Made by a program: the position numbers and the translations under genes
Source of the DNA: Mrakia gelida
Taxonomy: Eukaryota; Basidiomycota; Tremellomycetes; Cystofilobasidiales; Mrakiaceae
NCBI GenBank assembly: GCA_024345305.1
Contig: BRON01000006.1
Coordinates: 1,116,001 to 1,180,000 of the forward strand
Length of the DNA: 64,000 nucleotides
Direction: 5' to 3'
Notes under the pieces: model-generated
Seen by the model: the letters and a program-made list of their open reading frames with translations, nothing else
Databases searched by the model: none
Told to the model about the DNA's origin: nothing
Shown: positions 1,466-35,204 of the stretch, piece after piece
Numbering within the stretch: position 1 is the first letter of the stretch
Layout of the letters: each line of letters opens with the position of its first letter

Positions 1466-1666
1466 TGTTGAAACTTCCGGTCCTGGGAAGTTAGGTTGTG
1501 CAAGTTATTGTATCAACTTAAGCTATGAAGATGAAATGTCTTTAGGTCGAAAAGAAAGAGCGACGTGTAACTACGTGGAACTACCTGGAAGTGAAACGTG
1601 GAGGCGATGGAGAGTATTAAGCAAATATGAACAGTAATCTCGACGCCGTAAACAACATATTCAACA
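1466..1666 (-). repeat. 3' LTR of copia A
   Basis: In element orientation it runs TGTTGAATATG...GAAGTTTCAACA, 201 bp, with TG/CA ends. It matches the 202-bp LTR at 14079-14280 closely. A purine-rich tract (GAGTGGGAG on the minus strand, 1667-1675), the likely plus-strand primer, abuts it. Confidence 0.92.
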
Positions 1667-4600: not shown

Positions 4601-5029
4601 TTTGATCAACGTCGTTCCGTCTTTCCTGAACGTGCAGCCGGTGGCCGTAAAGTTGACGTTGACTCCTCGATGGGTGAGTTGTCCGATCGAGATGAGGTTG
4701 GCGAAGTTGGGGATGTAGTAGATGTCGGAGATCTGGAATGTTCGTGTGACTCCGTTGACGGTAGTTGTGACGATGAGGTTTCCAATCCCTTCCGTGCCGA
4801 CGACTTTGTTGTCCGCAACCTTGACGGTGGTTGAGTGCGGTTTGAAGTTGTGCAGGGCTGACCTGTCGTTGCAGATGTGGTTGCTGCACCCGCTGTCCGC
4901 GATCCATGCGCCATCGTCAATGGAGAAAGCCTCCTCCTCGACGTTTGCTGTCGCGACCGTCGCGAGTCCCCAATCTCTTCCACTCCGCCCAGCCTTGTTG
5001 GCTTCCTCCTTCTTTTTTACTTCCGCCAC
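1661..5029 (-). CDS. copia A pol polyprotein (protease, integrase, reverse transcriptase, RNase H)
   Basis: The 1122-codon frame carries the copia domain order. First is a protease with DSGCSNHI near residue 47. A GAG-pre-integrase HRRLGHAS follows, then the integrase core with HSDLQGPM, RSDNGGEY and NGKAERGN. The reverse transcriptase has the YVDD box, and the C-terminal RNase H has WTDADYAGD and DNQGAIETAKNGTHSERTKHID. The stop codon lies inside the LTR, whereas in family B the frame stops 30 bp before it. Gag precedes it in a frame displaced by one base, with an overlap around a run of six A's (about 5007-5012). That fits either programmed +1 frameshifting or a one-base length change in the run. 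The first in-frame Met at 5029 is probably not a real start. No internal stop is seen. The element cannot move by itself as it stands, because its 5' end is elsewhere. Confidence 0.88.
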   Translation of the reverse strand: MAEVKKKEEANKAGRSGRDWGLATVATANVEEEAFSIDDGAWIADSGCSNHICNDRSALHNFKPHSTTVKVADNKVVGTEGIGNLIVTTTVNGVTRTFQISDIYYIPNFANLISIGQLTHRGVNVNFTATGCTFRKDGTTLIKRVIFRKLYKLKIDDIQASQSTEGAGLSAEGVDAVETLHRRLGHASVAAMRRLVTDGILPPLKEQDLVAFEKRACVPCIQGKQHRSPFHTSTHRSTTPLERVHSDLQGPMPTESFSRKWYMMTIWDDATNYHWTFALEKKSDTYRTFVEWKARVEKEKGRTVRILRSDNGGEYLSDAFKAYLKTEGIKHETSIPYTPQQNGKAERGNRTIEEKITCLLHDTDNLQDRGRYWAEAMATATFLINRLPSVATGGRTPYEAYQGSKPSVHFLRAFGSIAYVYDPHHKKHQSKTLKAILVGYGEPNGKKAYRLRKEEDGKIIFSRDVKFDEGSSKSKKAELDLVPPADGEVPDQDEKGSDVGENDVPEANIPIGDDDPARIAKARQPSRIKPSWSYEPVIDDQPDADVSGRYGRGKRNQKSTEPAEFASFVSLATPNAKQDLSTLPNPITPKTTKEALISPHAEYWKSAMDEEMESFDSNGVWELTELPSSRRTVGGRWVYLLKKDPNGKIAKFKARWVAKGYSQRDGIDYTETYAPVSRMNSLRIFFTIAAQEDLELRQGDFKTAFLTANLVETVYMDQPTGYERTGKEGQKLVAHLLKAIYGLKQSPLAFYNHSSDFFSSLNLHAIEADHCLYVGWKDGRRRMLIQYVDDFIVAGSKEDVQEVMGKTKNRFTIDDRGNLEDGMMLGMKVQRDRAKRTISLTQQRYSEEILERFEMGNVKPARTPMDEHKQLMIGSDLSKEDLRGIDQTHYLQAVGSLMYLMVCTRPDLAYPVGVISRFSNDPRAIHWAAVKRILRYIAGTKSHGLTLGGNPKAPILEMWTDADYAGDHETRRSTTGYLIKLFGSPVVWASRRQKAISKSSHESEYIALSQGCQNLIWVAKLLRQVDYNIPIVPVRVDNQGAIETAKNGTHSERTKHIDVAYKYGRELLQNEVISLSHCPTDRMTADILTKALGWEKLERFRAEMGVDIQKRDDTAHLVEWEC

Positions 5030-5256
5030 CCCTCTGGCTCCCTTGACCCTTCCTCCCTCCCTGACCCTTCGGTTTTCCGACCAGGTCGTAGCACTCCGAC
5101 TTGAAGTGCCCCTTCTTCCCGCAGTGGTGGCATGCTGCCTTCGATTTGTCGACGTTCATCGCGGTGTCCTCTTCTGGGACGTTGTCCAATTTCGACGATT
5201 TCGTTCTGACGTGGGATAGGAGGGCGGTGGTAACTGATTTGGGGGTGAGTTCCTTT
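4917..5256 (-). pseudogene. copia A gag, C-terminal part with zinc knuckle
   Basis: After the CCGG at 5257-5260 the frame reads the conserved segment KELTPKSVTTALLSHVRT, then a CX2CX4HX4C zinc knuckle (CHHCGKKGHFKSEC), then a Gly/Lys/Gln-rich linker. Family B has the same order in its single frame. Gag is the structural protein of the virus-like particle and the knuckle binds RNA. The N-terminal half is at 14328-14887. The gene is broken by a nested insertion at its CCGG and by the later inversion. Confidence 0.82.
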
Positions 5257-5260
5257 CCGG

Positions 5261-5636
5261 TGTGGGGGTTTGGAGAGGAAGTGAGGAGTTCTTCTCGGTT
5301 CGTTCGTTCTTTCGGTTTGCTTTCTTCTCGACGCGTCTCTTCCCCTTTTCTCCTGTCTCGGTTAGAGACCCCGCTTCTATAGGTTCTGGGCCTCGCCCTT
5401 CTGGTTATATTTAGTCCTCTGCTTCCCTTCGCCGACTGTTCTCGTTCTGTAGATACCTTTGCCCGAAACCTTCCCCTCGCGACGCGCCTCACTCACGTTC
5501 CCCTTTTTCTTCTCGGCCTTCCCTTCCGTCTCGACTCTCTTGCTTAGTACATACTTTTCTCGGTTCTCGCCTTCTCTGCCTCTTCCGTTTTATAGCTTAT
5601 ACCCCTTTTTGGCTTTGCTGTGACCGCTGATGGTCT
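5261..5636 (-). mobile_element. one part of an 830-bp short-TIR element nested in copia A gag
   Basis: Starting at the gag CCGG (5257-5260), the insert begins TGTGGGGGTTTGG in plus orientation and runs to the B1 LTR. The other part is 14888-15346, which starts TGTGGGCGTT beside a second CCGG (14884-14887). Together (459 + 376 - 5 bp) they make an 830-bp element with imperfect inverted ends TGTGGG[C/G]GTT and an apparent CCGG duplication. No transposase frame is visible, so it is probably non-autonomous. Confidence 0.65.
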
Positions 5637-5863
5637 TGTTGGAAGGTGGCGACTCGCAGAGAGATCTTACGTAGTAGCTTAGTAACGCGTCTCGTTCAGT
5701 CCCCTTGGTAGTAACCATTCTTCGTAAACAGCTTTGTAAGCTACCTTCAGATCACGTGACCATTTCCATAGTATATAAACCTTTCGAGTAGCTAGCTTTA
5801 TACAACAAGCTTTGAACCACATCCTGCAGACATCCCTAAGCTCAAGTGGACGACCCAACAACA
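5637..5863 (+). repeat. 5' LTR of B1
   Basis: It runs TGTTGGAAGG...ACCCAACAACA, 227 bp. It holds TCACGTGA and a TATATAA box and should drive transcription of the element. Confidence 0.95.
5752..5778 (+). promoter_or_regulatory. E-box and TATA box in the B1 LTR
   Basis: A perfect TCACGTGA palindrome (5752-5759) stands 12 bp upstream of TATATAA (5772-5778). The same pair occurs at 20069-20043 (minus) in B2 and 35320-35346 in B3. The E-box also survives in the solo LTR at 47056 and the relic at 54658. CACGTG cores are typical sites for bHLH factors of the Cbf1/Pho4 class; binding here is an inference. Confidence 0.65.
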
Positions 5864-5876
5864 CGTTATCAGCACC
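5864..5876 (+). other. putative minus-strand primer-binding site of B1
   Basis: CGTTATCAGCACC directly follows the 5' LTR. The same bases follow the 5' LTR of copia A (14281-14293), B2 and B3, although the LTRs of A and B differ. The primer tRNA was not identified. Confidence 0.6.
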
Positions 5877-5909
5877 AGTTCGCCACCACCCGCTCAGCAA
5901 TCCTTCGTC

Positions 5910-8900
5910 ATGTCAAGCAACTACTCCAAGAAGCTAGATCACAAGCTGTTCAAACTCACTGCTCTCGATGGTACCAACTACGAGACGTGGTCAGTAAGGA
6001 TGGAGATCGCTTTTGGAGAAGCAGGAATCAAGCCCGTCGTCCTCGGTACGAAAACCAGGCCCAACCTCACCCCGGAAATCATGGAAAAGGATACCACCGG
6101 ACAAGAGGTCGTGAAGCAGCAGAACAACGTCAAGGACATCGAAGAATGGGACCATATGGACGAGTTCGCGCTCCACAGGATTCAAATGGCGGTCAGCGAC
6201 CGAGAACTACCTCGGATCCGGAACTGCAAACACGCAAAGGAGGCATGGGATCTTCTGAGGAAGACTCACAAGGTGGAAGGAGGAGCGGGAGAGGTCATGG
6301 CCATCCGAAGGATGAGGGACCTCAAGATGGAGGAGGGAGAACCAGTACAGGAGTACATCGACGAATTCCAAAGGATCATCGACGACATGTCAGCTCTCGG
6401 CCTCAACATCCCAGACAGGATGAGCACAATGTTCTTCCTCAGTGGATTACCTGCATCACTCGAACAATTCATTCAACACCAAACGCTCCAGGCGCAAGAA
6501 TCAAAACAAGAACTCAACCCAACCGCCGTCGCCACATCCCTCCTCATCCACGTAAGGACTCACGAGTCCCTCAAACCGACCGGTACTTCATCGTCGAAGG
6601 AAACAGCCCTCCTTGTCGACAAGAGGACCGCCAAGTGCCATCAGTGCAACAAGGTCGGACACTTCAAGTCGGAGTGCTGGGAGTTGAATGGAGGAAAGCC
6701 CACGGGGCAGGGACAAGGTGGAAAGGGAAGGAAGTTCGGGAAGGGGAAGAAGGAGAACAAGGGGAACTGGAAGGATAGGGAAGAGGCGCACCTCGTAGAC
6801 TACGGTCTTCAAGCCGGATCCGACATCGCGACGTCGGCCCAAGCGCTCTTCGCTCAAACCAAGCATGGATACATCGCCGATAGTGGAGCATCAAACCACA
6901 TCGTCGGGGACCGGGAACGCTTCGTAACATACAAGGCGCACAACGGAACGGTCACGACGGCCAACGGATCAATCGTTCAGATCCTCGGCATCGGCTCCAT
7001 CCACCTCCAGACCACCGTGAAAGGATCAAGGAAGGCCTTCACCATCTCCGACGTATACCACATCCCAGGGTTCAGCAACCTCATCAGTATTGGTCAACTC
7101 GGTAACAAAGGAGTCGAGACCAGGTTCCCCAGCAAGGGGACAACCCAAACCAACAAGCGGTGCCAGTTCCTTCGAGACGGATCGCTGTTCATGGAGGGAA
7201 AAGAGGTGTCGAAGAACCTCTACATGCTGGACGTGAGCGACTTCAAGGGAGTCGGCTCAGGAGGAGAAGACGTAGCACTCGCGGCAACAGGAGTCGACAA
7301 GATCGAGGTCCTTCATCGCCGGCTCGGTCACGCTTCTATCTCCGCCATGGAGGAGTTGTCTCGTCAGAAGCTCCTACCAACCTTCACCAAAAAGGACATC
7401 ATCGGATTCAAGGAAAGGATCTGCGTACCTTGCGTCGAAGGGAAACAACATCGAACTCCATTCCCCACCTCCACCACCAAAACCACTTCACCTCTCGAAC
7501 TCGTCCACACGGATCTCGCCGGACCGATGCCAATCGCCTCGGCTCAAGGAATGCGTTACATGATGACGATCTGGGACGACTTCAGCAACTACCACTGGTC
7601 GTTCGCATTGAAGAGGAAGTCGGAAACACTGGCAACATTCATCACCTGGAGGAAAAGGGAGGAGAAAAGGACCAATCACGTCGTCAAACGGATCAGGTCA
7701 GACAACGGTGGGGAATACACGTCGAAGGACTACGAGTTCTATCTCCGGGACGAAGGAATCACCAAGGAAACGACTATCCCACACACACCGCAACAAAACG
7801 GCAAGGCCGAACGAGGAATGCGAACCATCGAGGAGAAGATCACCTGCGCGCTACGAGACGCGAGGGACCTCGACGGATCCTACTGGGCGGAAGCCATGAA
7901 CTACGCCACATACACAATCAACCGCATTCCCTCATCCTCAGTCAACTCTCAAACCCCCTACCAAGCCTACTACAAAAGGAAGCCCGACCTCACTGCAATG
8001 CGGACGTTCGGAGCTCTCGCTTACGCGCTCAACCTTCAAAAGATCAAGCATCAACCCAAGAGCATCAAGTGCATCTTCCTCGGATACGGCGATCTCAACG
8101 GGAAGAAGGCCTATCGACTTCAAGTCCATGGAGACCCCAAGCGGTCGATCCTTCATTCTCGGGACGTTATCTTCGACGAAACACGTGGAGTCCACCAGAC
8201 GGTGGAGCTACCAGGAATGGGACAAGCCGGAATCAAGGAGGACCACAAGGAGGAGGAAGAAGAAGAGAAGGAACTAGAGGAGGACAAAGGAGAGGAACAG
8301 CACCTACTCAAGTCCAACCAACAAGACCCGGTCAGGGAGACCGAGGCAAGGAAACCCAACCCATCACGCGTCAAGCACTCCTACACTTACGAGCCCATCA
8401 TCGATGAACCGGCTGTCGATTTGAGTGGGAGCTACGGACGAGGTCAACGGAACAAGAAGCCATTCACAGGAACAGGAGACTCGGCAAGATTTGTCCAGAC
8501 GGACTACGACATCACCGACTTCATTTCGGAGGACTTCGCCGGACACGCTCAAGCGACGCAACCCAAACTCGAGGATCTTCCACCACCCTCCGTCCCAAAT
8601 ACATACGGAGAAGCCATGGCGTCGGAGCACGCATACTTCTGGAGGGAAGCGATGGACGAAGAGATGGTGTCGATGGAAGGGAACGGAGTCTTTGAACTCA
8701 CAGAGCTACCCTCAGGATCAAAAACGGTCAGAGGTCGCTGGGTCTACGCGCTCAAGAAAGGAGCCGACGGGAGGATTACTCGCTTCAAAGCTAGATGGGT
8801 CGCCAAGGGATTCAGTCAGCAAGAAGGAGTCGACTACGTCGAGACGTACGCGCCGGTATCAAAGCTCAACTCACTCAGGATCGTCCTCGCCATCACAGCA

Positions 8901-10217
8901 TCGGAGGATCTCGATCTAGTTCAAGGAGACTTCAAGACGGCGTTCCTCACAGCCGACCTAGTGGAAACGGTCTTCATGGAACAGCCAACAGGGTACGAAC
9001 AAAAGGGAGCCGACAAGAAGAAACTCGTCGCGCATCTCCTCAAGGCCCTATACGGACTCAAACAATCGCCACTCGCGTTCTACAATCACTCCTCAAAGTT
9101 CTTTCAAACTCAACTCAATCTCCATCCACTCGAAGCGGACCCTTGTATCTACATAGGGCATAGGAAGGGACGACGGATCATGTTGGTCCAGTACGTTGAC
9201 GACTTCGTCGCCGCAGGAGACAAGGAGGATTTGGAATGGGTCATGACGGAGATCCAAAAGGAATTCAAGATCGACGACAGAGGAGACCTCAACCCAGGAA
9301 CCATCCTCGGAATCGACGTTACGAGGGACCGCAAGGCGGGGACAATGGACCTCAGCCAGAAACGATACGTTCAAACGGTCCTCGAACGATTCAACATGGT
9401 CGGCGCTAAACCAAACAAGGTTCCGATGGACGACTTTAGGCAACTGTCGGTCCAATCGGAGGATTCGGGATCAGAGAAGCTGGACGGAGTACCCTACCTC
9501 GAAGCGGTGGGATCGTTGATGTACCTCCAAGTCTGCACTCGACCGGACATCGCCTTCGCCGTCGGAGTTCTCAGCCGATTCAGCTCGGACCCAAGAAGGG
9601 TTCACTGGGGAGCAGTCAAGAAGGTCATGCGATACCTACAAGGATCAGCAGACACGTCGCTTCAACTTGGAGGACACTCGGACGCTCCAATCGCAGAACT
9701 ATGGACCGACTCCGACTACGCCGGAGACACGGAATCAAGACGATCAACAACAGGATTCGTCGTCAAGGTATTTGGATCCACAGTCATCTGGGCAAGTCGA
9801 CGCCAAAAGGCAATCAGTCTCTCTTCTCTTGAAGCAGAGTACATCGCTCTCTCCGCAGGATGCCGGAACCTCAGATGGGTCGCCAAGATCCTCGCTGAAC
9901 TCGGATACGACACCGGATCGATCCCAGTAAACGTAGACAACCAAGGAGCCATCGAAACAACCAAGAACGGTACTCACTCGGAGAAGACCAAGCACATCGA
10001 CGTCGCGTACAAATACGGACGAGAGGCCCAACAGAGAGGATTCATCAAGCTCAACTACTGTCCCACCGAGGACCTGCAGGCAGACATCCTCACCAAGGCT
10101 CTCGGAGTCGAAAAGCTCGAACGGTTCAAGAAATCGCTCAACATCCAGAAGGAACCCTCGCGCTTGGATCAGAAGACCAGCGGAGACATGGATGGAAACC
10201 CGCAGAGGGGGAAATGA
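5910..10217 (+). CDS. copia B1 gag-pol polyprotein, intact
   Basis: The ATG at 5910 opens 1435 codons without a stop. Gag comes first, with a CX2CX4HX4C zinc knuckle at residues 243-256 (CHQCNKVGHFKSEC). The aspartic protease has DSGASNH at about 324. The integrase follows: an H-H-C-C finger (HRRLGHAS ... CVPC) and catalytic D535 (HTDL), D598 (SDNGGEY) and E634 (KAERG). The reverse transcriptase has YVDD at 1095-1098. RNase H has WTDSDYAGD near 1265 and DNQGAIETTKNGTHSEKTKHID near the end. All core residues are present, so the protein could be active. Gag and pol are in one frame, unlike copia A, so the Gag:Pol ratio must be set by something other than frameshifting. A Glu-rich linker lies between integrase and reverse transcriptase. 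Confidence 0.95.
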   Translation: MSSNYSKKLDHKLFKLTALDGTNYETWSVRMEIAFGEAGIKPVVLGTKTRPNLTPEIMEKDTTGQEVVKQQNNVKDIEEWDHMDEFALHRIQMAVSDRELPRIRNCKHAKEAWDLLRKTHKVEGGAGEVMAIRRMRDLKMEEGEPVQEYIDEFQRIIDDMSALGLNIPDRMSTMFFLSGLPASLEQFIQHQTLQAQESKQELNPTAVATSLLIHVRTHESLKPTGTSSSKETALLVDKRTAKCHQCNKVGHFKSECWELNGGKPTGQGQGGKGRKFGKGKKENKGNWKDREEAHLVDYGLQAGSDIATSAQALFAQTKHGYIADSGASNHIVGDRERFVTYKAHNGTVTTANGSIVQILGIGSIHLQTTVKGSRKAFTISDVYHIPGFSNLISIGQLGNKGVETRFPSKGTTQTNKRCQFLRDGSLFMEGKEVSKNLYMLDVSDFKGVGSGGEDVALAATGVDKIEVLHRRLGHASISAMEELSRQKLLPTFTKKDIIGFKERICVPCVEGKQHRTPFPTSTTKTTSPLELVHTDLAGPMPIASAQGMRYMMTIWDDFSNYHWSFALKRKSETLATFITWRKREEKRTNHVVKRIRSDNGGEYTSKDYEFYLRDEGITKETTIPHTPQQNGKAERGMRTIEEKITCALRDARDLDGSYWAEAMNYATYTINRIPSSSVNSQTPYQAYYKRKPDLTAMRTFGALAYALNLQKIKHQPKSIKCIFLGYGDLNGKKAYRLQVHGDPKRSILHSRDVIFDETRGVHQTVELPGMGQAGIKEDHKEEEEEEKELEEDKGEEQHLLKSNQQDPVRETEARKPNPSRVKHSYTYEPIIDEPAVDLSGSYGRGQRNKKPFTGTGDSARFVQTDYDITDFISEDFAGHAQATQPKLEDLPPPSVPNTYGEAMASEHAYFWREAMDEEMVSMEGNGVFELTELPSGSKTVRGRWVYALKKGADGRITRFKARWVAKGFSQQEGVDYVETYAPVSKLNSLRIVLAITASEDLDLVQGDFKTAFLTADLVETVFMEQPTGYEQKGADKKKLVAHLLKALYGLKQSPLAFYNHSSKFFQTQLNLHPLEADPCIYIGHRKGRRIMLVQYVDDFVAAGDKEDLEWVMTEIQKEFKIDDRGDLNPGTILGIDVTRDRKAGTMDLSQKRYVQTVLERFNMVGAKPNKVPMDDFRQLSVQSEDSGSEKLDGVPYLEAVGSLMYLQVCTRPDIAFAVGVLSRFSSDPRRVHWGAVKKVMRYLQGSADTSLQLGGHSDAPIAELWTDSDYAGDTESRRSTTGFVVKVFGSTVIWASRRQKAISLSSLEAEYIALSAGCRNLRWVAKILAELGYDTGSIPVNVDNQGAIETTKNGTHSEKTKHIDVAYKYGREAQQRGFIKLNYCPTEDLQADILTKALGVEKLERFKKSLNIQKEPSRLDQKTSGDMDGNPQRGK

Positions 10218-10238
10218 AGGAAGGACTCTCAGCTCGTC

Positions 10239-10247
10239 GAGTGGGAG
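10239..10247 (+). other. polypurine tract of B1
   Basis: GAGTGGGAG abuts the 3' LTR. The same tract adjoins the 3' LTRs of A, B2 and B3 and, slightly changed, the relic at 29002. Confidence 0.6.
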
Positions 10248-10474
10248 TGTTGGAAGGTGGCGACTCGCAGAGAGATCTTACGTAGTAGCTTAGTAACGCG
10301 TCTCGTTCAGTCCCCTTGGTAGTAACCATTCTTCGTAAACAGCTTTGTAAGCTACCTTCAGATCACGTGACCATTTCCATAGTATATAAACCTTTCGAGT
10401 AGCTAGCTTTATACAACAAGCTTTGAACCACATCCTGCAGACATCCCTAAGCTCAAGTGGACGACCCAACAACA
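10248..10474 (+). repeat. 3' LTR of B1
   Basis: This 227-bp copy appears identical to the 5' LTR at 5637-5863. It is followed by GAAGG, which pairs with the flank of B2 at 20185-20189 (CCTTC on the plus strand) rather than with its own left flank. Confidence 0.95.
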
Positions 10475-10766
10475 GAAGGCCAGAGCTGTTCTTGAGGAAA
10501 GCTCTTCCGACTCGTCTATGGATGCGGACGAGGAGGAGAACGAGGGGGAGAAGGAGGAGGAGGAGGTGCTGAGTAGAGCGGTGGTTCGGGCTGTACCAAG
10601 GGCGGCGGGGGTGATGAAGCGGGTGGGGAGAGAGAAGAAGGACCTGTCGCGGTTTTGGACGTACAAGTGGGTTCCTCGGGAGGCGGATGAGACGATGGAA
10701 GAGACGACAGATGAGGGAGCTGGTGGTATGGTGGAGGTGATGGGACATCGTTTCAGGGCGAGATAG
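10475..10766 (+). pseudogene. C-terminal tail of the pogo-like transposase, displaced by inversion
   Basis: The frame starting at 10476 encodes about 96 residues: an acidic stretch rich in Glu and Asp, then a basic tail ending in a stop at 10764-10766. It has no start of its own. Joined to the minus-strand frame that ends at B2 (20185), it continues in frame through the shared GAAGG, so it is the missing end of the 20185-21512 gene. Alone, an acidic tail would not identify the gene; the assignment rests on the junction. Confidence 0.72.
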
Positions 10767-10922
10767 CTTCGTTGGGGGGAGGAAGGACAGCTGGGGAGCT
10801 TTGGGGCGACGTCGCTCTGCCTTCGACTTCTTTGACGTATTTTTTCTTACTTTCCGCTCATGGGATCATATATATACGTATTGCCTCTCTCCTCGTCCAG
10901 TCTCAGCCTGCAAAATGGAAAG

Positions 10923-11355
10923 GGGAAGCAATCATTGCGCTTCCAAAAGGACAAGGGTGCGTCGATTTTGGTTTCGAGACGAGCTCGTCGAGCTCATCAC
11001 CTTCTCATCTTGGAGGGACGTCGAGGGACGCGGTGTTGCTACTAGACGTTCGAGATAAGCGCGATTTTGTGCATCATGTACACAAGAATCCCTCAAAGTA
11101 TCAACACTTGGAAGAAGAGACAGAATGTGGACTCAGGAGGATTTTTACATTTAATTTTTCGAGAAAGCGAGCTCGGACGTAAGTCTTTCACGTATGCTCT
11201 GGCTTTTTCAACGCGTCTCTCGGGTCTCAGCTTTTGCTCGTAGCATCCATGTATACGTGTTCAATTATGAGCGAAAGATCGAAGCAAAAAGATGATTCTG
11301 CAGCGAGAACGAGGGGGTAGAAGTAAAATGGCCCGTTTCTGCGACAAGTTCTGTA
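10923..11355 (+). repeat. dispersed repeat R1, copy 1
   Basis: From GGGAAGCAATCATTGCG to CAAGTTCTGTAA this segment is a diverged inverted copy of 34681-35127, with matches over almost the whole length. Copy 2 carries an extra 18-bp direct repeat near one end. In both places R1 lies near pogo-like sequence, so it may be non-coding DNA of the same transposon family (inference). Confidence 0.75.
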
Positions 11356-13207
11356 ATGAAACGAGCACAATTCACCAAATGCAGCTTCCGCCTTCTCCTT
11401 CACAAACACCATCTTCTCCTTCGTTATATAGTTCCTCATCGTCCTTTTCGACGTAGCCGTACTGCTGCCAGTAACCGAAGATCTGCCGCCTTTCCAACCT
11501 CCAACGATCTTCTCCGACACTTTGACCTTCCCAACCTCCCACATCGACCTCGTTCTCGACGAGCAGTTTCCTCTCCTTCTCGAGTTCGGCGATGGCGAAG
11601 GGGATGAAAGCGGTGGAGTAGGTTGAGGAGAGGACGGAGAGGTGGTGGGCTAGATTGAAGGTTGCGAGGCTGAGGGCACCATGTTGGATGAGAAGGCCGA
11701 AGGGAGGAGAGGAGGGATTGAAGCTTCGCTAGTCGCTCCGCACTTCCACGACGTTCTCCTACCTGATCTGCTCAGAAGAAGGCGATCACTGCATCCGGTG
11801 GTATGCGAAGACCTATCACAGAGGCGAGGTTAAGGTCGAGGAGTCTACGAGAAAAGACTAGAAAATGGGGGTGTTGTCACCTCGCCCGAAGGAGGAGTAG
11901 GAGCAGGAGAGAGAGAAGACGGATCGAGGTGGAGTCGAAAATGTATCCCCGTCCGATCACAATCCGGGGCTTTATTTTCCTTAAAACCCCCATTCGCATA
12001 ATTTTTCTTTTTTGAAAAATTTATTTTCTGCCCCATTCGTAGAAAAGTGGAGTGGTCTCGTTTTCACGCCCAATGTCACCCAATTCAGGAGTAGAAACCA
12101 AAAAAAAGGTGAAATATGAATTCCGCCACCAGGGTTGAAGAGGTTCCATCGTGAGTATTGTAGACGGAGGGTTGGTTTGGCCACAGCAGGTAAAATTTCG
12201 AGCTGAAGATGGGGAGGGAGGGAGGAGGTGTTGGCGAGCTTCGTCTCCTTCCGAGCGAGCGAGTAGAGGTTCCGACTAGAGCTGAGAGAAGGGGGAGTTG
12301 GACTTTTGACGAGGCGTATGCGGTATAGAAGAAGGACCTGTCGGTCTCGATGCATCCTCGCGAGACTGTGGTGGACGTTGAGAGCTGTTCGACAACGCTG
12401 GCTGCCCTCTCTCTCTTTCGTGAGCTTTCGAGTCGAGCTCCCTCCTGCTTTCATCCAAACCGTCATTTTCTCCAATTTTCATCTGTGACCCCCTCTTCTC
12501 TGCCAAGGTCTCAGGTCCTCCAACGGATCATCTAGCACTGATTTCAACGAGATCGACTCCTTCACTCTCCAAGACGATTTCGCTCTGGTGACTTCTCGAC
12601 GTCCCTCCTCCTCGTCGTCTCCTCCCTTCTCTCGTTGCTCTTTCTCGCTCCACCTCTTTCTCGGCGGAATCGCTCAAGATGAGCTCATCCTTTTCTTTCC
12701 TTCCTCCTGCCTTCAGTTATCTCCTCGACCTTGCCTCCTCTCGGTTTCCAGAAAAAACAGCTCGCCTCCTCTCAACCACCATCTTCACTCCATTCCCTGC
12801 CCAGTATCTCCAGGAACCCCTCGCTCTCTCGTCGTTCCTGTTCTTGGAAAAGGGGCTAGATGACGGATGATAATTGCTTCTGTACGTTTGACGAGGAGGA
12901 GCGACGACGATGAAGGGTTGATGATGGTGAGGATGAAGATCGTTGGAAGTATTGATTGGGATGCGAGTTCGGGTAAGTGAAGGAGGATCGGTAGGATTGA
13001 GATTGGTGGTGGGAGGGAGGTGTCGCGAGGGAAGATCCCGCTGAGCTGCGAGGATTGAGGGCATGGCAACTCCCTTGTGTCCCCGAGAAGACCCCGCATC
13101 CTGATTCGAACCCAAAACTGCGGATGAATGAAGGCCTTCCGGAGGACAGGAAAGGGGCTAACTCCTGCTCCTTTGACCATTACTCCCTCCCTTCCTCAAT
13201 TCGGAAG
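11356..13207. other. stretch without a recognised gene
   Basis: It contains only short, low-complexity open stretches. One frame at 12679-12867 (about 62 codons from an ATG, Phe/Leu-rich) might be an exon, but nothing identifies it. An A/T-rich patch lies at 11960-12110. The whole stretch is inside the inverted segment between B1 and B2. Confidence 0.4.
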
Positions 13208-14012
13208 ATGACCGAGTCTCTACCTCCCTTCGATGTCTCAACATCACCCTCTACTTCTTCCGCTCCTTTCGCAACCCCAAAATCACCCCTCGCCATCCTC
13301 CTCAATCTCTCGCTCCTCGCGATCCCATACTACCTTCTCTCCCTTCACCTCGGACTCAACCCTCGGAACCTCCCCTCTCCGCTCCCCTCTGGCTTCCTCA
13401 TCCTTTCCGTCTTCAGCATCATCCATCTGTGCATCCCTTTCATCACGCTCCTGTACGCTCCATCCACGCCTAAAGGTCGATACGGTGCCCAGTGGACAGC
13501 CTCCAACCTCAACCTCATCGCAGCGTTTGTGCTCGTCCTCCTGTTGTTGGCGAATGAGGTGTCTCTCTCGCAGTCTGCGAGAGAATCCTCCATTGCCCTC
13601 ACGGTCGTAGTATCCACCGCCTTGTTTGCAGCCGTCAACACTGGTGAGTTCTCACGTGCCTTATTCGGGATGGACGCAAGGGATGGACGCTGACCTCCCC
13701 CTGCACTCATTCATTCCTTCTCCTTCTTCTCTTCCCCCGGGCTTCTAGCTTTCAACACCTCGTCTGAATCACCCTGGCGTAGAGGCCCATCCCAGGAGGA
13801 AACGTTGAGGAAGCAGCTCAGGTTGGAACAGCTTAGAGCATCCGTCGATGCTGCTAAGGCTGGACGGAGGTCCATCGTCCTCGAGGACAAAGCGGTGAAC
13901 ACTGCCAAGAGCTCGGATGTGACAGGCTCAGGTGAGTTTGCACTTCTCCAACTCTCCTAGATATATCTTGCTTGCTGATGGACGCCGTTTTCACATTGCA
14001 GATGTCTCCTAG
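13208..14012 (+). CDS. small multi-pass membrane protein, unrecognised family (three exons)
   Basis: Exons 13208-13643, 13749-13931 and 14002-14012 join to 209 codons and a TAG. Introns are GTGAGT...TTCTAG and GTGAGT...TTGCAG, 105 and 70 bp. The N-terminal Ser/Thr/Pro-rich segment is followed by four hydrophobic stretches, at about residues 29-45, 60-83, 98-112 and 125-140. The C-terminal 65 residues are charged and look cytosolic or helical (Gln/Glu/Lys/Arg-rich). No catalytic motif or family was recognised. The last exon holds only three codons and part of a fourth. The gene ends 66 bp before copia A and was carried, intact, inside the inverted segment, so its present orientation is the reverse of the ancestral one. 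Confidence 0.72.
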
Positions 14013-14078
14013 GAGTTGGGGTCAGCGAGGCAAGCCGGGGGATAAAAGACACAGGGAGATGCCGGGGGAGGTGCTGTC

Positions 14079-14280
14079 TGTTGAATATGTTGATTACGGC
14101 GTCGAGATTACTGTTCATATTTGCTTAATACTCTCCATCGCCTCCACGTTTCACTTCCACGTAGTTCCACTTAGTTACACGTCGCTCTTTCTTTTAGACC
14201 TAAAGACCTTTCATCTTCACACCTGAAGTTGATACAATATCTTGCACAACCCCAACTTCCCAGGACCGGAAGTTTCAACA
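14079..14280 (+). repeat. 5' LTR of copia A
   Basis: It runs TGTTGAATATG...GAAGTTTCAACA, 202 bp, and differs from the 3' LTR at 1466-1666 by a few substitutions and a one-base length change. Confidence 0.92.
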
Positions 14281-14327
14281 CGTTATCAGCACCACTCGCT
14301 CGCTACAGCACGATCATCCCATCCGAC

Positions 14328-14887
14328 ATGTCGACCAACGAGCGAAACATCAGGCTCTTCAAGCTCGACCCGCTGGACAGCCGAAACTACGCAACATGGT
14401 CAATCAGGATGCAGATCGCTCTCGCAGAGACCAAGTACAAGTCACTCGTCCTCGGTACGGAAGTCTTCCCAGTCCCCGCACCAGCCGAAACAGGAGCAGC
14501 ACTCAAGACGAGGCAAGAGGAATGGAACGAACGAAAAGAGTTCGCCCTCCACCGGATTCAGATGGCCGTCACGGACCGGGAACTCATGCGTGTCGCAGCG
14601 TGCGCGAACGCGAAAGACGCCTGGGACATTCTCAAGACGGCACATCGAGTCGACGGAGCGGCAGGGAAGATGATGGTCCAAAGGAAGCTTAGGGACCTCC
14701 GGATGGAGGAGGGCTCGTCAGCTCAGTCGTACATCGAACAGTTCGAGGACATCGTCGCCGAAGCCACTATCCTCGACATGGACATCATCAAGACGCCGGA
14801 GCAACTCGCCCTCCAGTTCCTCGCAGGTCTCCCCAAATCCCTGGAGAACTTCTCCGACATCATCTCCCTCAACTCCCAAGAGTCCGG
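14328..14887 (+). pseudogene. copia A gag, N-terminal part, truncated by insertion
   Basis: The ATG at 14328 opens a frame homologous to the first 190 or so residues of family B gag. The LFKL...WSIRMQIAL block, the FALHRIQMAV block and the FLAGLPKSLE block are all recognisable. The frame is sound up to the codons for NSQESG, where the short-TIR element enters at CCGG; the reading then ends at a stop 7 codons on (14904-14906). The continuation KELTP... is at 5256 on the minus strand. Confidence 0.85.
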
Positions 14888-15346
14888 TGTGGGCGTTCTA
14901 CGGTAAAGTAAAGGTCTCTAGGTGGGGTTGTGGTGGGTAGCTCTATCGAGGTTCGTGGGAGGAACGACGCTGGCGAGTGCTCGTTGAGGTTTCAGCTCTT
15001 GGAGGCTTTGGGGTGGGCTGGGAGAAGGAAGGGAGGTCGGTGGAGAAGGGAAAACGAGAACTACTACTAGCGACTTGAGAACTACGCGAGGGAGAATGAG
15101 AACTACTACTGGGCGACTTGACGGCGAGACTGGTTCTGGAGAAGGGAAGATGAGAAAGGGAGACGAGAAGGGAAGCTGAGAAGTTGACCAATTCTGGGGT
15201 GAAAGTTGATCCATAGCAAGAAGGTCAAAACTAGCCCACTCTTTATACTAAATATGATCCGCAGTCCGAAGCACCGAAAAGAGGAACGAGGCTGGAGGGA
15301 GTAGCTAGCGAAAGGGAGGAAGGGCGGTGAGACACGACGCGAGACC
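14888..15346 (+). mobile_element. other part of the 830-bp short-TIR element
   Basis: It begins TGTGGGCGTT directly after CCGG. It contains two copies of a GAGAACTACTACT motif (about 15056 and 15098) and repeated GGAGAAGGGAA-type purine stretches, but no coding frame. It is cut at 15346 by B2. Its partner part is 5261-5636. Confidence 0.65.
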
Positions 15347-15573
15347 TGTTGTTGGGTCGTCCACTTGAGCTTAGGGATGTCTGCAGGATGTGGTTCAAAG
15401 CTTGTTGTATAAAGATAGCTACTCGAAAGGTTTATATACTATGGAAATGGTCACGTGATCTGAAGGTAGCTTACAAAGCTGTTTACGAAGAATGGTTACT
15501 ACCAAGGGGACTGAACGAGACGCGTTACTAAGCTACTACGTAAGATCTCTCTGCGAGTCGCCACCTTCCAACA
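15347..15573 (-). repeat. 3' LTR of B2
   Basis: A 227-bp LTR with one visible difference from its partner at 19958-20184 (AAAGATAGC here, AAAGCTAGC there, plus strand). Confidence 0.95.
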
Positions 15574-15603
15574 CTCCCACTCGACGAGCTGAGAGTCCTT
15601 CCT

Positions 15604-18600
15604 TCATTTCCCCCTCTGCGGGTTTCCATCCATGTCTCCGCTGGTCTTCTGATCCAAGCGCGAGGGTTCCTTCTGGATGTTGAGCGATTTCTTGAACCGT
15701 TCGAGCTTTTCGACTCCGAGAGCCTTGGTGAGGATGTCTGCCTGCAGGTCCTCGGTGGGACAGTAGTTGAGCTTGATGAATCCTCTCTGTTGGGCCTCTC
15801 GTCCGTATTTGTACGCGACGTCGATGTGCTTGGTCTTCTCCGAGTGAGTACCGTTCTTGGTTGTTTCGATGGCTCCTTGGTTGTCTACGTTTACTGGGAT
15901 CGATCCGGTGTCGTATCCGAGTTCAGCGAGGATCTTGGCGACCCATCTAAGGCTCCGGCATCCTGCGGAGAGAGCGATGTACTCTGCTTCAAGAGAAGAG
16001 AGACTGATTGCCTTTTGGCGTCGACTTGCCCAGATGACTGTGGATCCAAATACCTTGACGACGAATCCTGTTGTTGATCGTCTTGATTCCGTGTCTCCGG
16101 CGTAGTCGGAGTCGGTCCATAGTTCTGCGATTGGAGCGTCCGAGTGTCCTCCAAGTTGAAGCGACGTGTCTGCTGATCCTTGTAGGTATCGCATGACCTT
16201 CTTGACTGCTCCCCAGTGAACCCTTCGTGGGTCCGAACTGAATCGGCTGAGAACTCCGACGGCGAAGGCGATGTCCGGTCGAGTGCAGACTTGGAGGTAC
16301 ATCAACGATCCCACCGCTTCGAGGTAGGGTACTCCGTCCAGCTTCTCTGATCCCGAATCCTCCGATTGGACCGACAGTTGCCTAAAGTCGTCCATCGGAA
16401 CCTTGTTTGGTTTAGCGCCGACCATGTTGAATCGTTCGAGGACCGTTTGAACGTATCGTTTCTGGCTGAGGTCCATTGTCCCCGCCTTGCGGTCCCTCGT
16501 AACGTCGATTCCGAGGATGGTTCCTGGGTTGAGGTCTCCTCTGTCGTCGATCTTGAATTCCTTCTGGATCTCCGTCATGACCCACTCCAAATCCTCCTTG
16601 TCTCCTGCGGCGACGAAGTCGTCAACGTACTGGACCAGCATGATCCGTCGTCCCTTCCTATGCCCTATGTAGATGCAAGGGTCCGCTTCGAGTGGATGGA
16701 GATTGAGTTGAGTTTGAAAGAACTTTGAGGAGTGATTGTAGAACGCGAGTGGCGATTGTTTGAGTCCGTATAGGGCCTTGAGGAGATGCGCGACGAGTTT
16801 CTTCTTGTCGGCTCCCTTTTGTTCGTACCCTGTTGGCTGTTCCATGAAGACCGTTTCGACTAGGTCTGCTGTGAGGAACGCCGTCTTGAAGTCTCCTTGG
16901 ACTAGATCGAGATCCTCCGATGCTGCGATGGCGAGGACGATCCTGAGTGAGTTGAGCTTTGATACCGGTGCGTACGTCTCGACGTAGTCGACTCCTTCTT
17001 GCTGACTGAATCCCTTGGCGACCCATCTGGCTTTGAAGCGAGTAATCCTCCCGTCGGCTCCTTTCTTGAGCGCGTAAACCCAGCGACCTCTGACCGTTTT
17101 TGATCCTGAGGGTAGCTCCGTGAGTTCAAAGACTCCGTTCCCTTCCATCGACACCATCTCTTCGTCCATCGCTTCTCTCCAGAAGTATGCGTGCTCCGAC
17201 GCCATGGCTTCTCCGTATGTATTTGGGACGGAGGGTGGTGGAAGATCCTCGAGTTTGGGTTGCGTCGCTTGAGCGTGTCCGGCGAAGTCCTCCGAAATGA
17301 AGTCGGTGATGTCGTAGTCTGTCTGGACAAATCTTGCCGAGTCTCCTGTTCCTGTGAGAGGTTTCTTGTGCCGTTGACCTCGTCTGTAGCTCCCACTCAA
17401 ATCGACAGCCGGTTCATCGATGATGGGCTCGTAAGTGTAGGAGTGCTTGACGCGTGATGGGTTGGGTTTCCTTGCCTCGGTCTCCCTGACCGGGTCTTGT
17501 TGGTTGGACTTGAGTAGGTGCTGTTCCTCTCCTTTGTCCTCCTCTAGTTCCTTCTCTTCTTCTTCCTCCTCCTTGTGGTCCTCCTTGATTCCGGCTTGTC
17601 CCATTCCTGGTAGCTCCACCGTCTGGTGGACTCCACGTGTTTCGTCGAAGATAACGTCCCGAGAATGAAGGATCGACCGCTTGGGGTCTCCATGGACTTG
17701 AAGTCGATAGGCCTTCTTCCCGTTGAGATCGCCGTATCCGAGGAAGATGCACTTGATGCTCTTGGGTTGATGCTTGATCTTTTGAAGGTTGAGCGCGTAA
17801 GCGAGAGCTCCGAACGTCCGCATTGCAGTGAGGTCGGGCTTCCTTTTGTAGTAGGCTTGGTAGGGGGTTTGAGAGTTGACTGAGGATGAGGGAATGCGGT
17901 TGATTGTGTATGTGGCGTAGTTCATGGCTTCCGCCCAGTAGGATCCGTCGAGGTCCCTCGCGTCTCGTAGCGCGCAGGTGATCTTCTCCTCGATGGTTCG
18001 CATTCCTCGTTCGGCCTTGCCGTTTTGTTGCGGTGTGTGTGGGATAGTCGTTTCCTTGGTGATTCCTTCGTCCCGGAGATAGAACTCGTAGTCCTTCGAC
18101 GTGTATTCCCCACCGTTGTCTGACCTGATCCGTTTGACGACGTGATTGGTCCTTTTCTCCTCCCTTTTCCTCCAGGTGATGAATGTTGCCAGTGTTTCCG
18201 ACTTCCTCTTCAATGCGAACGACCAGTGGTAGTTGCTGAAGTCGTCCCAGATCGTCATCATGTAACGCATTCCTTGAGCCGAGGCGATTGGCATCGGTCC
18301 GGCGAGATCCGTGTGGACGAGTTCGAGAGGTGAAGTGGTTTTGGTGGTGGAGGTGGGGAATGGAGTTCGATGTTGTTTCCCTTCGACGCAAGGTACGCAG
18401 ATCCTTTCCTTGAATCCGATGATGTCCTTTTTGGTGAAGGTTGGTAGGAGCTTCTGACGAGACAACTCCTCCATGGCGGAGATAGAAGCGTGACCGAGCC
18501 GGCGATGAAGGACCTCGATCTTGTCGACTCCTGTTGCCGCGAGTGCTACGTCTTCTCCTCCTGAGCCGACTCCCTTGAAGTCGCTCACGTCCAGCATGTA

Positions 18601-19911
18601 GAGGTTCTTCGACACCTCTTTTCCCTCCATGAACAGCGATCCGTCTCGAAGGAACTGGCATCGCTTGTTGGTTTGGGTTGTCCCCTTGCTGGGGAACCTG
18701 GTCTCGACTCCTTTGTTACCGAGTTGACCAATACTGATGAGGTTGCTGAACCCTGGGATGTGGTATACGTCGGAGATGGTGAAGGCCTTCCTTGATCCTT
18801 TCACGGTGGTCTGGAGGTGGATGGAGCCGATGCCGAGGATCTGAACGATTGATCCGTTGGCCGTCGTGACCGTTCCGTTGTGCGCCTTGTATGTTACGAA
18901 GCGTTCCCGGTCCCCGACGATGTGGTTTGATGCTCCACTATCGGCGATGTATCCATGCTTGGTTTGAGCGAAGAGCGCTTGGGCCGACGTCGCGATGTCG
19001 GATCCTGCTTGAAGACCGTAGTCTACGAGGTGCGCCTCTTCCCTATCCTTCCAGTTCCCCTTGTTCTCCTTCTTCCCCTTCCCGAACTTCCTTCCCTTTC
19101 CACCTTGTCCTTGCCCCGTGGGCTTTCCTCCATTCAACTCCCAGCACTCCGACTTGAAGTGTCCGACCTTGTTGCAGTGATGGCACTTGGCGGTCCTCTT
19201 GTCGACTAGGAGGGCTGTTTCCTTCGACGATGAAGTACCGGTCGGTTTGAGGGACTCGTGAGTCCTTACGTGGATGAGGAGGGATGTGGCGACGGCGGTT
19301 GGGTTGAGTTCTTGTTTTGATTCTTGCGCCTGGAGCGTTTGGTGTTGAATGAATTGTTCGAGTGATGCAGGTAATCCACTGAGGAAGAACATTGTGCTCA
19401 TCCTGTCTGGGATGTTGAGGCCGAGAGCTGACATGTCGTCGATGATCCTTTGGAATTCGTCGATGTACTCCTGTACTGGTTCTCCCTCCTCCATCTTGAG
19501 GTCCCTCATCCTTCGGATGGCCATGACCTCTCCCGCTCCTCCTTCCACCTTGTGAGTCTTCCTCAGAAGATCCCATGCCTCCTTTGCGTGTTTGCAGTTC
19601 CGGATCCGAGGTAGTTCTCGGTCGCTGACCGCCATTTGAATCCTGTGGAGCGCGAACTCGTCCATATGGTCCCATTCTTCGATGTCCTTGACGTTGTTCT
19701 GCTGCTTCACGACCTCTTGTCCGGTGGTATCCTTTTCCATGATTTCCGGGGTGAGGTTGGGCCTGGTTTTCGTACCGAGGACGACGGGCTTGATTCCTGC
19801 TTCTCCAAAAGCGATCTCCATCCTTACTGACCACGTCTCGTAGTTGGTACCATCGAGAGCAGTGAGTTTGAACAGCTTGTGATCTAGCTTCTTGGAGTAG
19901 TTGCTTGACAT
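15604..19911 (-). CDS. copia B2 gag-pol polyprotein, intact
   Basis: It has 1435 codons and the same domain order and catalytic residues as B1. Visible differences include the zinc knuckle second residue (CHHCNK instead of CHQCNK), a YRRGQRHKKPLTG segment where B1 has YGRGQRNKKPFTG, an Ala for Thr change in the reverse transcriptase (AIAASED), and Ser for Asn before the terminal RNase H motif (CRSLRW). None touches a catalytic residue and there is no stop or frameshift, so this copy could also be active. Confidence 0.95.
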   Translation of the reverse strand: MSSNYSKKLDHKLFKLTALDGTNYETWSVRMEIAFGEAGIKPVVLGTKTRPNLTPEIMEKDTTGQEVVKQQNNVKDIEEWDHMDEFALHRIQMAVSDRELPRIRNCKHAKEAWDLLRKTHKVEGGAGEVMAIRRMRDLKMEEGEPVQEYIDEFQRIIDDMSALGLNIPDRMSTMFFLSGLPASLEQFIQHQTLQAQESKQELNPTAVATSLLIHVRTHESLKPTGTSSSKETALLVDKRTAKCHHCNKVGHFKSECWELNGGKPTGQGQGGKGRKFGKGKKENKGNWKDREEAHLVDYGLQAGSDIATSAQALFAQTKHGYIADSGASNHIVGDRERFVTYKAHNGTVTTANGSIVQILGIGSIHLQTTVKGSRKAFTISDVYHIPGFSNLISIGQLGNKGVETRFPSKGTTQTNKRCQFLRDGSLFMEGKEVSKNLYMLDVSDFKGVGSGGEDVALAATGVDKIEVLHRRLGHASISAMEELSRQKLLPTFTKKDIIGFKERICVPCVEGKQHRTPFPTSTTKTTSPLELVHTDLAGPMPIASAQGMRYMMTIWDDFSNYHWSFALKRKSETLATFITWRKREEKRTNHVVKRIRSDNGGEYTSKDYEFYLRDEGITKETTIPHTPQQNGKAERGMRTIEEKITCALRDARDLDGSYWAEAMNYATYTINRIPSSSVNSQTPYQAYYKRKPDLTAMRTFGALAYALNLQKIKHQPKSIKCIFLGYGDLNGKKAYRLQVHGDPKRSILHSRDVIFDETRGVHQTVELPGMGQAGIKEDHKEEEEEEKELEEDKGEEQHLLKSNQQDPVRETEARKPNPSRVKHSYTYEPIIDEPAVDLSGSYRRGQRHKKPLTGTGDSARFVQTDYDITDFISEDFAGHAQATQPKLEDLPPPSVPNTYGEAMASEHAYFWREAMDEEMVSMEGNGVFELTELPSGSKTVRGRWVYALKKGADGRITRFKARWVAKGFSQQEGVDYVETYAPVSKLNSLRIVLAIAASEDLDLVQGDFKTAFLTADLVETVFMEQPTGYEQKGADKKKLVAHLLKALYGLKQSPLAFYNHSSKFFQTQLNLHPLEADPCIYIGHRKGRRIMLVQYVDDFVAAGDKEDLEWVMTEIQKEFKIDDRGDLNPGTILGIDVTRDRKAGTMDLSQKRYVQTVLERFNMVGAKPNKVPMDDFRQLSVQSEDSGSEKLDGVPYLEAVGSLMYLQVCTRPDIAFAVGVLSRFSSDPRRVHWGAVKKVMRYLQGSADTSLQLGGHSDAPIAELWTDSDYAGDTESRRSTTGFVVKVFGSTVIWASRRQKAISLSSLEAEYIALSAGCRSLRWVAKILAELGYDTGSIPVNVDNQGAIETTKNGTHSEKTKHIDVAYKYGREAQQRGFIKLNYCPTEDLQADILTKALGVEKLERFKKSLNIQKEPSRLDQKTSGDMDGNPQRGK

Positions 19912-19957
19912 GACGAAGGATTGCTGAGCGGGTGGTGGCGAACTGGTGCTGATAACG

Positions 19958-20184
19958 TGTTGTTGGGTCGTCCACTTGAGCTTAGGGATGTCTGCAGGAT
20001 GTGGTTCAAAGCTTGTTGTATAAAGCTAGCTACTCGAAAGGTTTATATACTATGGAAATGGTCACGTGATCTGAAGGTAGCTTACAAAGCTGTTTACGAA
20101 GAATGGTTACTACCAAGGGGACTGAACGAGACGCGTTACTAAGCTACTACGTAAGATCTCTCTGCGAGTCGCCACCTTCCAACA
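19958..20184 (-). repeat. 5' LTR of B2
   Basis: A 227-bp LTR with E-box and TATA box conserved. It is followed on the plus strand by CCTTC, which matches (as GAAGG) the bases right of B1. Confidence 0.95.
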
Positions 20185-21512
20185 CCTTCCTCCCTCCTCC
20201 CCTGACTCCTCCCCTCACCCTCCCTCCCATCCTGCCAGCTCTGAGACTCATCTCCTTCCCAAAAGATAGCTCCCCTCGACCCTTCCCACCCTTCTTCCCA
20301 ACTCCACCTCCGAAAACTCCTTTCCTCGCCTCCTTCTTGATCAACGCAGCCGTCCGGAGCGTCCCCTGGAGGATCGCGCTCTCTGGGTGAAGACCACTCC
20401 TCCGTGCTCAGGATTCTTCAGGATGATCCTGTCCCCGACCTCGGCTTCCGAACTCCCGTTCTCCTGATCGGGCTGCTTCTTCTGAACGGCCGAGTGAGCG
20501 ATCTGGACCTCGTCGCGCTCGACCTGATCGCGTAGAACGGCGACGAGGGCGTTGGAAGTCGTGAGGTCGTCGTCGGGTTGAACGTTCTCCCTCTGCTCAA
20601 ACGCTTTACTGATCGCGAAGATTTGGGTTTGGCGACGGTTGGGAGTGAGAGGGAGTTGGCTAGCGGAGGTGTTGAGAGGATGGGAGGAGGAAGGAGGGTA
20701 GAGGGAGGAGAAACGGGTAGAGGGAGAATCGAGTCGACGTCGCTCCTCGGCGTCGAGATACTCCTTGACGAAGGGGATCGCTGAGGAATCGATGGGCCAG
20801 GTCCCGCCTTCCTGAAGCGTGTGATGATGGTCGTGGGTTTGATGCAGTCTTTCCGAGCCGCGGCGAGGATCCTGGGAGGGAGGAAAGACGAAGAGGTGAG
20901 CAAGTCGAAGGGAGGTCAAAGACGGGAAAGGACGAGCTCACCCTGTGAACGCCTTCTTGTTAACTCTCCCTCCTCCATCGACATGAGCAATTAGGTGAAC
21001 CGTGTAGAAGTGGGCGGCGGGGGAGAAGACGGCGACGTCGAGAGCGGAGAGGAAGTCCGAGCTGTGGGAGGGGTAGTTGGCGATGGTGATTCCATGGTTG
21101 AAGGCGTAGGAGATGACGAGGGGTGCGAGGTGAGGGGTGGCTCCGTCGAAGTAGGGAACACGCTCCTCCGTTGGAAACCTTTGGTCTGTAAGGAGGCGAA
21201 GAGAGTATGGATTCAGCATTGAGCTCCTTGAAAGAGCTGGAAGTAAGGGTGAAGGAAGAGAAACGGCAACGAAGGGGGGGAAGGAAGAAGGAAGCTCACC
21301 TCGTGAGCTCCTCGAAGTGCACCATCCACTCCAGAGCTACCTCTGAGTTGATGTAACCCTCTTCCGTAGCGGCGAATCCAGTAACAGTCGGAAGGGTTGA
21401 GTGTCTGACCCACCGAAGTGTAGGTACTTCCCCTTCTTAATGATGAGAGGCTCGATGGATGCTCCGGCGGCAGAAACGCATTCGACGACGGTTACGAGCT
21501 CTCGGTTTCCGT
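20185..21512 (-). pseudogene. pogo/Tigger-like DDE transposase gene, decayed and split by B2
   Basis: Three exon-like blocks can be followed on the minus strand. Block a (21512-21300) has GNRELVTVVECVSAAG, IEPLIIKKGKY and, one frame on, GYINSEVALEWMVHFEELT. Block b (21185-20942) has PYFDGATPHLAPLV, the second Asp, and YPSHSSDFLSALDVAVF, the third Asp. Block c (20871-20185) has ILAAARKDCIKPTTIITRFR and later TWPIDSSAIPFVKEYL. These are hallmarks of the DDE_1 superfamily of pogo, Tigger and jerky transposases. Introns have GTGAGC donors with TTACAG and CTCCCAG acceptors. At least three frame changes break it (within block a, at the GGACCTGG of block c and near 20345), so it is a pseudogene. The N-terminal DNA-binding region was not found; the C-terminal tail is at 10475-10766. 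Confidence 0.8.
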
Positions 21513-26009: not shown

Positions 26010-26292
26010 TTAGAAGGTGGGTGTAGCTCGCTGCAGAAAGATGCTCGACAGTACAAGTGATATATAGATTGATAGTGCTTAGAGTCACAAAAGCTAGACT
26101 CACCTGCAGAAAGATGCTCGTCAGTACAAGTGAAAAGCAACACTCTGCGAGGTTCGCGAGCTTATATACCCATGGGTCAGTTTCGTGGAAACCTACTAGA
26201 AATCACTACGGACTCTTCTAAGATGCAACCAGATAGAAGCCTACATAAAACAGAGAAAGAGAGATAAATGATGCTCTAGAAACAAGTCGACG
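26010..26292 (+). repeat. dispersed repeat R4, copy 1
   Basis: It is an inverted relative of 46389-46602. Shared blocks are AGGTGGGTGTAG, GAGGTTCGCGAGCTTATATACCC, GAAACCTACT(A/G)GAAATCACTA and TAAATGATGCTCTAGAAAC. Copy 1 holds an internal duplication of about 30 bp (GCAGAAAGATGCTCG(A/T)CAGTACAAGTGA, twice) that copy 2 lacks. Confidence 0.78.
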
Positions 26293-27203: not shown

Positions 27204-27299
27204 CTAAGACAGCGTCTGAGTAGAGGAGGACCAAGATGGGGATGGAATGAGCCGGGGAAATCTTGTCCGTCGTCGAGATACTTTGAAGCCTGTTGGCCA

Positions 27300-35127: not shown

Positions 35128-35204
35128 TAAGTTAACTATGTTCCTCGGTCCTGCTGGATGTGTTCCGTGAATATGAGTCTTTACGCTGCAATGAAGATGA
35201 GGAC

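Follow-up and report, generated by a model that had tools for sequence, protein, structure and literature searches.

Exchanged target-site repeats at two inverted Copia elements point to a retrotransposon-mediated inversion in Mrakia gelida

Copia elements and other repeats at the locus

The window (the whole stretch of 64,000 nucleotides analyzed here) corresponds to C6:1116001-1180000 of the Mrakia gelida assembly, which comprises 34.86 Mb in 25 contigs. It carries three full-length copies of a single Copia family, which we designated B1, B2, and B3 (Table 1). As is typical of Copia (Ty1/Pseudoviridae-type) LTR elements, all three are bounded by direct LTRs that run from TG to CA, and short target-site repeats flank the members of the family; Ty1 is a Copia-type element. 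Each encodes one polyprotein with a copia-type gag, in which the integrase precedes the reverse transcriptase. Pfam searches placed Retrotran_gag_2 at residues 57 to 218, rve at residues 527 to 627, and RVT_2 at residues 926 to 1173 in B1 and B2, and the domains of B3 were the same except for gag (residues 63 to 218). In a protein search with the reverse transcriptase, the best hit among the 120 matches listed of 615 reached 60%. The 227-bp LTRs of B1, B2, and B3 are direct repeats that begin with TGTTGG and end with CAACA; the two LTRs of B1 do not differ from each other, and those of B2 differ at 1 site.

B1 and B2 are homologous copies in opposite orientations that occupy both breakpoints of the segment considered below, forming inverted arms of 4839 nucleotides with approximately 99% identity. 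Over 4838 bp, they differ at 29 positions (99.4% identity), 28 of which fall within element positions 978 to 4236, and two tracts, of 1275 and 977 bp, are identical between them. Genome-wide, we found 79 5' junctions of the B family (with up to 3 mismatches) and 222 LTR starts (with up to 2 mismatches). On C6, 39 exact LTR starts were listed, and 35 of them cluster within C6:892189-1308078, a region of 416 kb on a contig of 2.05 Mb. This region, which includes the window, is an island rich in transposable elements and perhaps a centromere or a nonrecombining region.

Table 1. Features of the locus and of its counterpart on contig C24 (window coordinates unless a contig is given)
Feature	Position	Strand	Remarks
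Element A (older Copia), pol part and one LTR	1466-5260	-	Repeat X had inserted into A; open frame 1661-5029, with domains
Repeat X, other half	5261-5636	-	B1 inserted into X
GGTCT, left flank of B1	5632-5636	+	One half of what would have been the target repeat at the left site
B1, full-length Copia element	5637-10474	+	4838 bp; 227-bp LTRs; 1435-aa open frame 5910-10217
GAAGG, right flank of B1	10475-10479	+	One half of what would have been the target repeat at the right site
Segment between B1 and B2, probably inverted	10475-15346	.	4872 bp
Repeat Y, gene-like frame, 3' part	10476-10766	+	Probably cut by B2 insertion and moved by inversion; tblastn of P0122
Element A, other LTR and start of gag	14079-14887	+	Now opposite to the pol part of A
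Repeat X, one half	14888-15346	+	Solo-LTR-like, ~830 bp; ends TG..CA; flanked on each side by CCGG
AGACC (GGTCT reversed), right flank of B2 in B2 orientation	15342-15346	+	
B2, full-length Copia element	15347-20184	-	4838 bp; 227-bp LTRs; 1435-aa open frame 15604-19911
CCTTC (GAAGG reversed), left flank of B2 in B2 orientation	20185-20189	+	
Repeat Y, gene-like frame, 5' part	20242-20817	-	tblastn of P0122, residues 16-207
B3, member of the B1/B2 family	35205-40045	+	4841 bp; 227-bp LTRs; 1435-aa open frame; AGGAC target repeats
Counterpart of B3	C24:106787-111627		AGGAC repeats; 0 differences in 4841 bp

On the left, B1 interrupts a repeat, X, that looks like a solo LTR and lies within the gag region of A, an older Copia element. 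The copy of X in the window is flanked by CCGG on both sides, and among the other X copies for which both ends were found, 10 of 15 had matching 4-bp flanks. The start of the A gag lies on the strand opposite to the A pol in the window, a discrepancy that flipping positions 10475 to 15346 corrects. The two LTRs of A (positions 1465 to 1666 and 14079 to 14281) are likewise inverted relative to each other, with 94.6% identity over 203 columns. Inspection of the outer flanks of A after flipping (GTTAG versus GACAG) revealed no target repeat, indicating that A has a further history.

On the right, B2 divides a gene-like frame, Y. Using tblastn, we found that the protein P0122 matches positions 20817 to 20242 on the minus strand, while its residues 227 to 322 match positions 10476 to 10763 on the plus strand; the two halves of Y therefore now face opposite ways. 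In a paralogue on contig C13, the frame is unbroken and encodes 336 aa, to which P0122 and P0123 are 86% and 54% identical, with coverages of 96 and 98%, respectively. Both come from public sources outside this genome, and each is one protein that spans both halves of the frame split by B2. A Pfam search with the Y frame gave no family above the cutoff; one stretch of it, FRKAGTWPIDPSAI, is perhaps reminiscent of pogo/Fot1-type transposases in their C-terminal part. Together, A, X, and Y fit only when the segment between B1 and B2 is flipped.

Within this segment, positions 13208 to 13690 contain a 161-aa open frame with hydrophobic stretches, which had one relative (45%) among 5.8 billion proteins and no family in a Pfam search.

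Target-site repeats in the B family

The original prediction held that B1 and B2 had exchanged their 5-bp target duplications, and both its coordinates and its letters proved to be right. Read in the orientation of each element, the flanks are GGTCT/GAAGG for B1, GAAGG/GGTCT for B2, and AGGAC/AGGAC for B3, the last of which had been cited as a perfect duplication and was read on both sides as such. The target-site repeats are thus exchanged between B1 and B2, an arrangement expected of an inversion by ectopic recombination between transposable elements, and flipping positions 10475 to 15346 back restores both duplications, as had been claimed.

We then determined how regularly members of this family are flanked by target repeats. 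The census covered 38 of the 79 junctions, namely, B1 to B3, a further 15 full copies, and 20 end pairs. For 5 of the end pairs, no 3' end was present at the expected place, and these were dropped, leaving 33 copies with both ends read; the counterpart of B3 on contig C24 was also read but was excluded from the 33, as it represents the same insertion as B3. Matching 5-bp repeats were found in 27 of the 33 copies, in agreement with the expectation that such duplications are the rule. The six copies with mismatched flanks were B1, B2, L060, L066, L074, and C6:1263328. Only B1 and B2 form a reciprocally swapped pair among the 33 copies read, and no reciprocal partner was found among them for the other mismatched copies. 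L074 is part of a tandem partial copy, which accounts for one of the four mismatches outside B1 and B2, while L060, L066, and C6:1263328 are possible products of other ectopic exchanges.

L060 and L066, both with mismatched 5-bp flanks, are located at C24:46178-51105 and C24:9751-14678, respectively. Further irregular arrangements of the family were noted elsewhere in the genome. Tandem partial copies in the same orientation occur at C1:443263-444207, where the LTR starts are 920 bp apart and GCGAG is present at both outer ends, and at C3:2258564-2260606, where a spacing of 1009 bp between LTR starts occurs twice. In addition, two opposite copies located 93 kb apart, C6:927948 (minus strand) and C6:1021357 (plus strand), have an identical 25-base 5' flank ending in CTGGA, which suggests an inverted duplication or another rearrangement.

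Chromosome order at the two breakpoints

If the segment was inverted, position 5636 should once have adjoined position 15346 in reverse, and position 10475 should have adjoined position 20185. For the left site, we queried the genome separately with positions 14700 to 15346 and 5000 to 5636 and scored the best 40 of the 52 and 47 candidates, respectively. In all 18 of the listed places that contained both left-site flanks, 5636 abuts 15346 reversed with a 5-base overlap, and in all 16 of those whose letters were read, this overlap is a single GGTCT; the evidence for the left breakpoint thus consists of paralogous copies of the repeats that hold B1. Among the same best 40 of 52 and 47 candidates, 12 copies of A lack X; in these, 14887 is followed directly by 5260 reversed, the two overlapping by 4 bases, and the identity is 97 to 100% for ten copies and 72 to 79% for two.

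The right site is found in its unflipped order on contig C24, a contig of 124 kb. Here, C24:89882-94376 contains window positions 13840 to 10475 reversed, joined directly to positions 20185 to 21318 (98.5 to 98.6%), with one CCTTC at the junction and B2 absent. Paralogues on C13, C15, and at C6:1257982 have the same side-by-side, unflipped order (84 to 96%); their letters at the site are diverged, giving an overlap of 1 or -3, and the clean single CCTTC with a 5-base overlap is seen on C24 only. A single target in the unflipped order was therefore observed where the elements are absent, in paralogues of X on the left and on C24 on the right, and the predicted ancestral order was recovered for both breakpoints from within the same genome. 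Among the loci read at either breakpoint, other than the window itself, none had the present order of 5636-10475 or 15346-20185.

Contig C24 also extends beyond the right breakpoint. C24:95870-113000 is collinear with window positions 24282 to 41418 (99.55%), and C24:121886-123081 matches positions 50300 to 51500. C24:89882-113000 is a near-identical second version of window positions 10475 to 41418, either a second haplotype or a duplicate. The two versions diverge by 1.1 to 2.2% across the inverted segment and the DNA that flanks it on the right, by 3.9% in the first collinear block (24.3 kb of the window), by 0.1 to 0.7% per kb between 25.3 and 35.3 kb, and not at all where they align between 35.3 and 41.4 kb. 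The match ends at window position 13840, 238 bp before the LTR of A, and C24 is therefore uninformative on the left breakpoint. A genome search with window positions 13841 to 14078 gave no other match, and no common home was found for the part of C24 to the left of 89882, which has just partial or short matches elsewhere in the genome.

LTR elements are not expected to be lost precisely. Since C24 lacks B2, it is most likely that B2 inserted, and that the inversion arose, after the C6 and C24 versions had separated. It is also conceivable, albeit rather unlikely, that the two versions are haplotypes for which the strain is heterozygous, with the inversion marking the edge of the stretch where exchange between them stopped. 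If so, this would be a retrotransposon-made inversion caught at the onset of local recombination suppression.

Origin of the arrangement and comparison with known systems

The original prediction of a retrotransposon-mediated inversion is well supported, within one assembly, by the swapped repeats and by the unflipped order at both breakpoints. We consider it highly probable that B1 and B2 inserted separately and that a homologous crossover between the inverted copies then flipped the segment between them. Two Copia elements of the same family would have inserted on one chromosome in opposite orientations, one at GGTCT within repeat X and the other at GAAGG/CCTTC within repeat Y. By crossing over within a single chromatid or between sister chromatids, the two elements would subsequently have turned round the intervening 4872 bp and exchanged their outer flanks. 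We infer that insertion came first and inversion second and that the two elements recombined by a homologous crossover within their own sequence, which explains why the junctions coincide precisely with the ends of the elements, why the 5-bp repeats are complete, and why the flanks are exchanged. With 1275 and 977 bp, the tracts identical between B1 and B2 would have provided enough substrate for such a crossover.

To look for a trace of the exchange within the elements, we aligned the 15 full copies with B1 to B3 and scored all 18 at the 29 sites at which B1 and B2 differ. The aligned copies are mosaics of one another at these sites, with no readable phase, and consequently the family as such gives neither a position for the crossover point nor a demonstration that B1 and B2 are chimeric. 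When all 153 pairs of copies are compared, the proportion of differences that fall in the element ends is lowest for B1 and B2 (1 of 29), with the limits of the ends set from B1 and B2. Conversion of the ends of B1 and B2 would possibly fit this value, which we did not count as evidence, as the limits were chosen afterwards from that very pair.

The main rival to an inversion is an assembly error, in which both elements would have normal target repeats and the 4872-bp segment would simply be misoriented between the 4.8-kb inverted repeats. Such an error predicts identical letters, including the swapped repeats and the splitting of A, X, and Y, and three copies elsewhere have mismatched flanks that are unexplained. 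Nevertheless, apart from B1 and B2, 31 copies were read at both ends, and 27 of these have matching repeats, showing that the assembly usually runs correctly through an element of this family. Moreover, 28 of the 29 differences between B1 and B2 are spread over element positions 978 to 4236, and the 34.9 Mb were assembled into 25 contigs despite the 79 family 5' junctions, from which we infer a long-read assembly. We therefore take the assembly to be correct at this locus and regard misorientation as unlikely.

Very unlikely, in our view, is an inversion without a crossover inside the elements, for example by the rejoining of broken ends or by template switching at the repeats during replication. 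A template switch from one inverted repeat to the other would lead to an identical outcome, and the crossover point is not visible; however, both junctions coincide exactly with the limits of the elements, the 5-bp repeats are complete, and no letters are lost or added, an outcome that random breakage would not produce. Chance, by which unrelated insertions happened to have crosswise-matching flanks or lost their repeats independently, can be dismissed even though four other copies also lack matching repeats, given that a crosswise 5-base match has a probability of about 1e-6 (from the flank composition, calculated after the pattern had been seen) and that the unflipped order with single-copy targets is found at both breakpoints.

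A homologous crossover between B1 and B2 thus remains the preferred explanation, and the locus represents a compact and well-documented chromosome rearrangement whose old order is preserved for both breakpoints elsewhere in this assembly. A genome-wide search for swapped target repeats is feasible and could allow such events to be counted, and if the inversion were heterozygous in this strain, the locus would be a place to watch its effect on exchange between haplotypes.

The mechanism by which a pair of retrotransposons generates an inversion is already well known, and B1 and B2 add one more case. The closest parallel is inversion 2z3 of Drosophila buzzatii, which was generated by the DNA transposon Galileo and for which the criteria were exchanged target repeats and single targets in the old order (PMC2775673). 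In both systems, the copies lie in opposite orientations, the target repeats are exchanged, and ectopic recombination was inferred; the noninverted Drosophila chromosomes carry single target copies, which correspond to the single targets in unflipped order described here. Galileo is a DNA transposon with 7-bp repeats, whereas B1 and B2 are LTR retrotransposons with 5-bp repeats, and the segment between them measures 4.9 kb. Furthermore, inverted and noninverted chromosomes were compared for 2z3 and the copies were found to be chimeric, while our comparison was made within one assembly.

In fungi, potential inversions of approximately 4.1 to 102.6 kb between long inverted repeats have been described in Candida albicans, where the breakpoints, as at our locus, lie inside the repeats (PMC6591007). 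In that fungus, lone LTRs and retrotransposons are rare (5.7%) at the breakpoints of copy number changes and inversions, unlike at B1 and B2, and the part of the report used here describes no target-repeat test, whereas the target repeats of B1 and B2 were read. Ty1-mediated rearrangements in Saccharomyces cerevisiae likewise have retrotransposons as the substrate for homologous rearrangement but were reportedly induced or selected in the laboratory, while B1 and B2 form a natural arrangement read from sequence (PMC3102749, PMC9879454). The B family also resembles the low-divergence Copia copies of another fungus, Microbotryum, which lie in chromosome regions rich in transposable elements, with Copia bursts in nonrecombining and centromeric regions; the portion of that account considered here has no transposon-made inversion, in contrast to the B1/B2 locus (PMC10502011).

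Ectopic recombination between repeats has been invoked in other organisms as well, being proposed to have occurred between transposons for inversions in Atlantic cod (PMC12368964) and hypothesized to have occurred between centromeric repeats for a translocation in a study of mating types in Cryptococcus and Kwoniella (PMC12510652). Finally, inversions between human and chimpanzee have been attributed to retrotransposons, as we propose for B1 and B2, but there the elements are L1 and Alu, which lack LTRs (PMC2603318).
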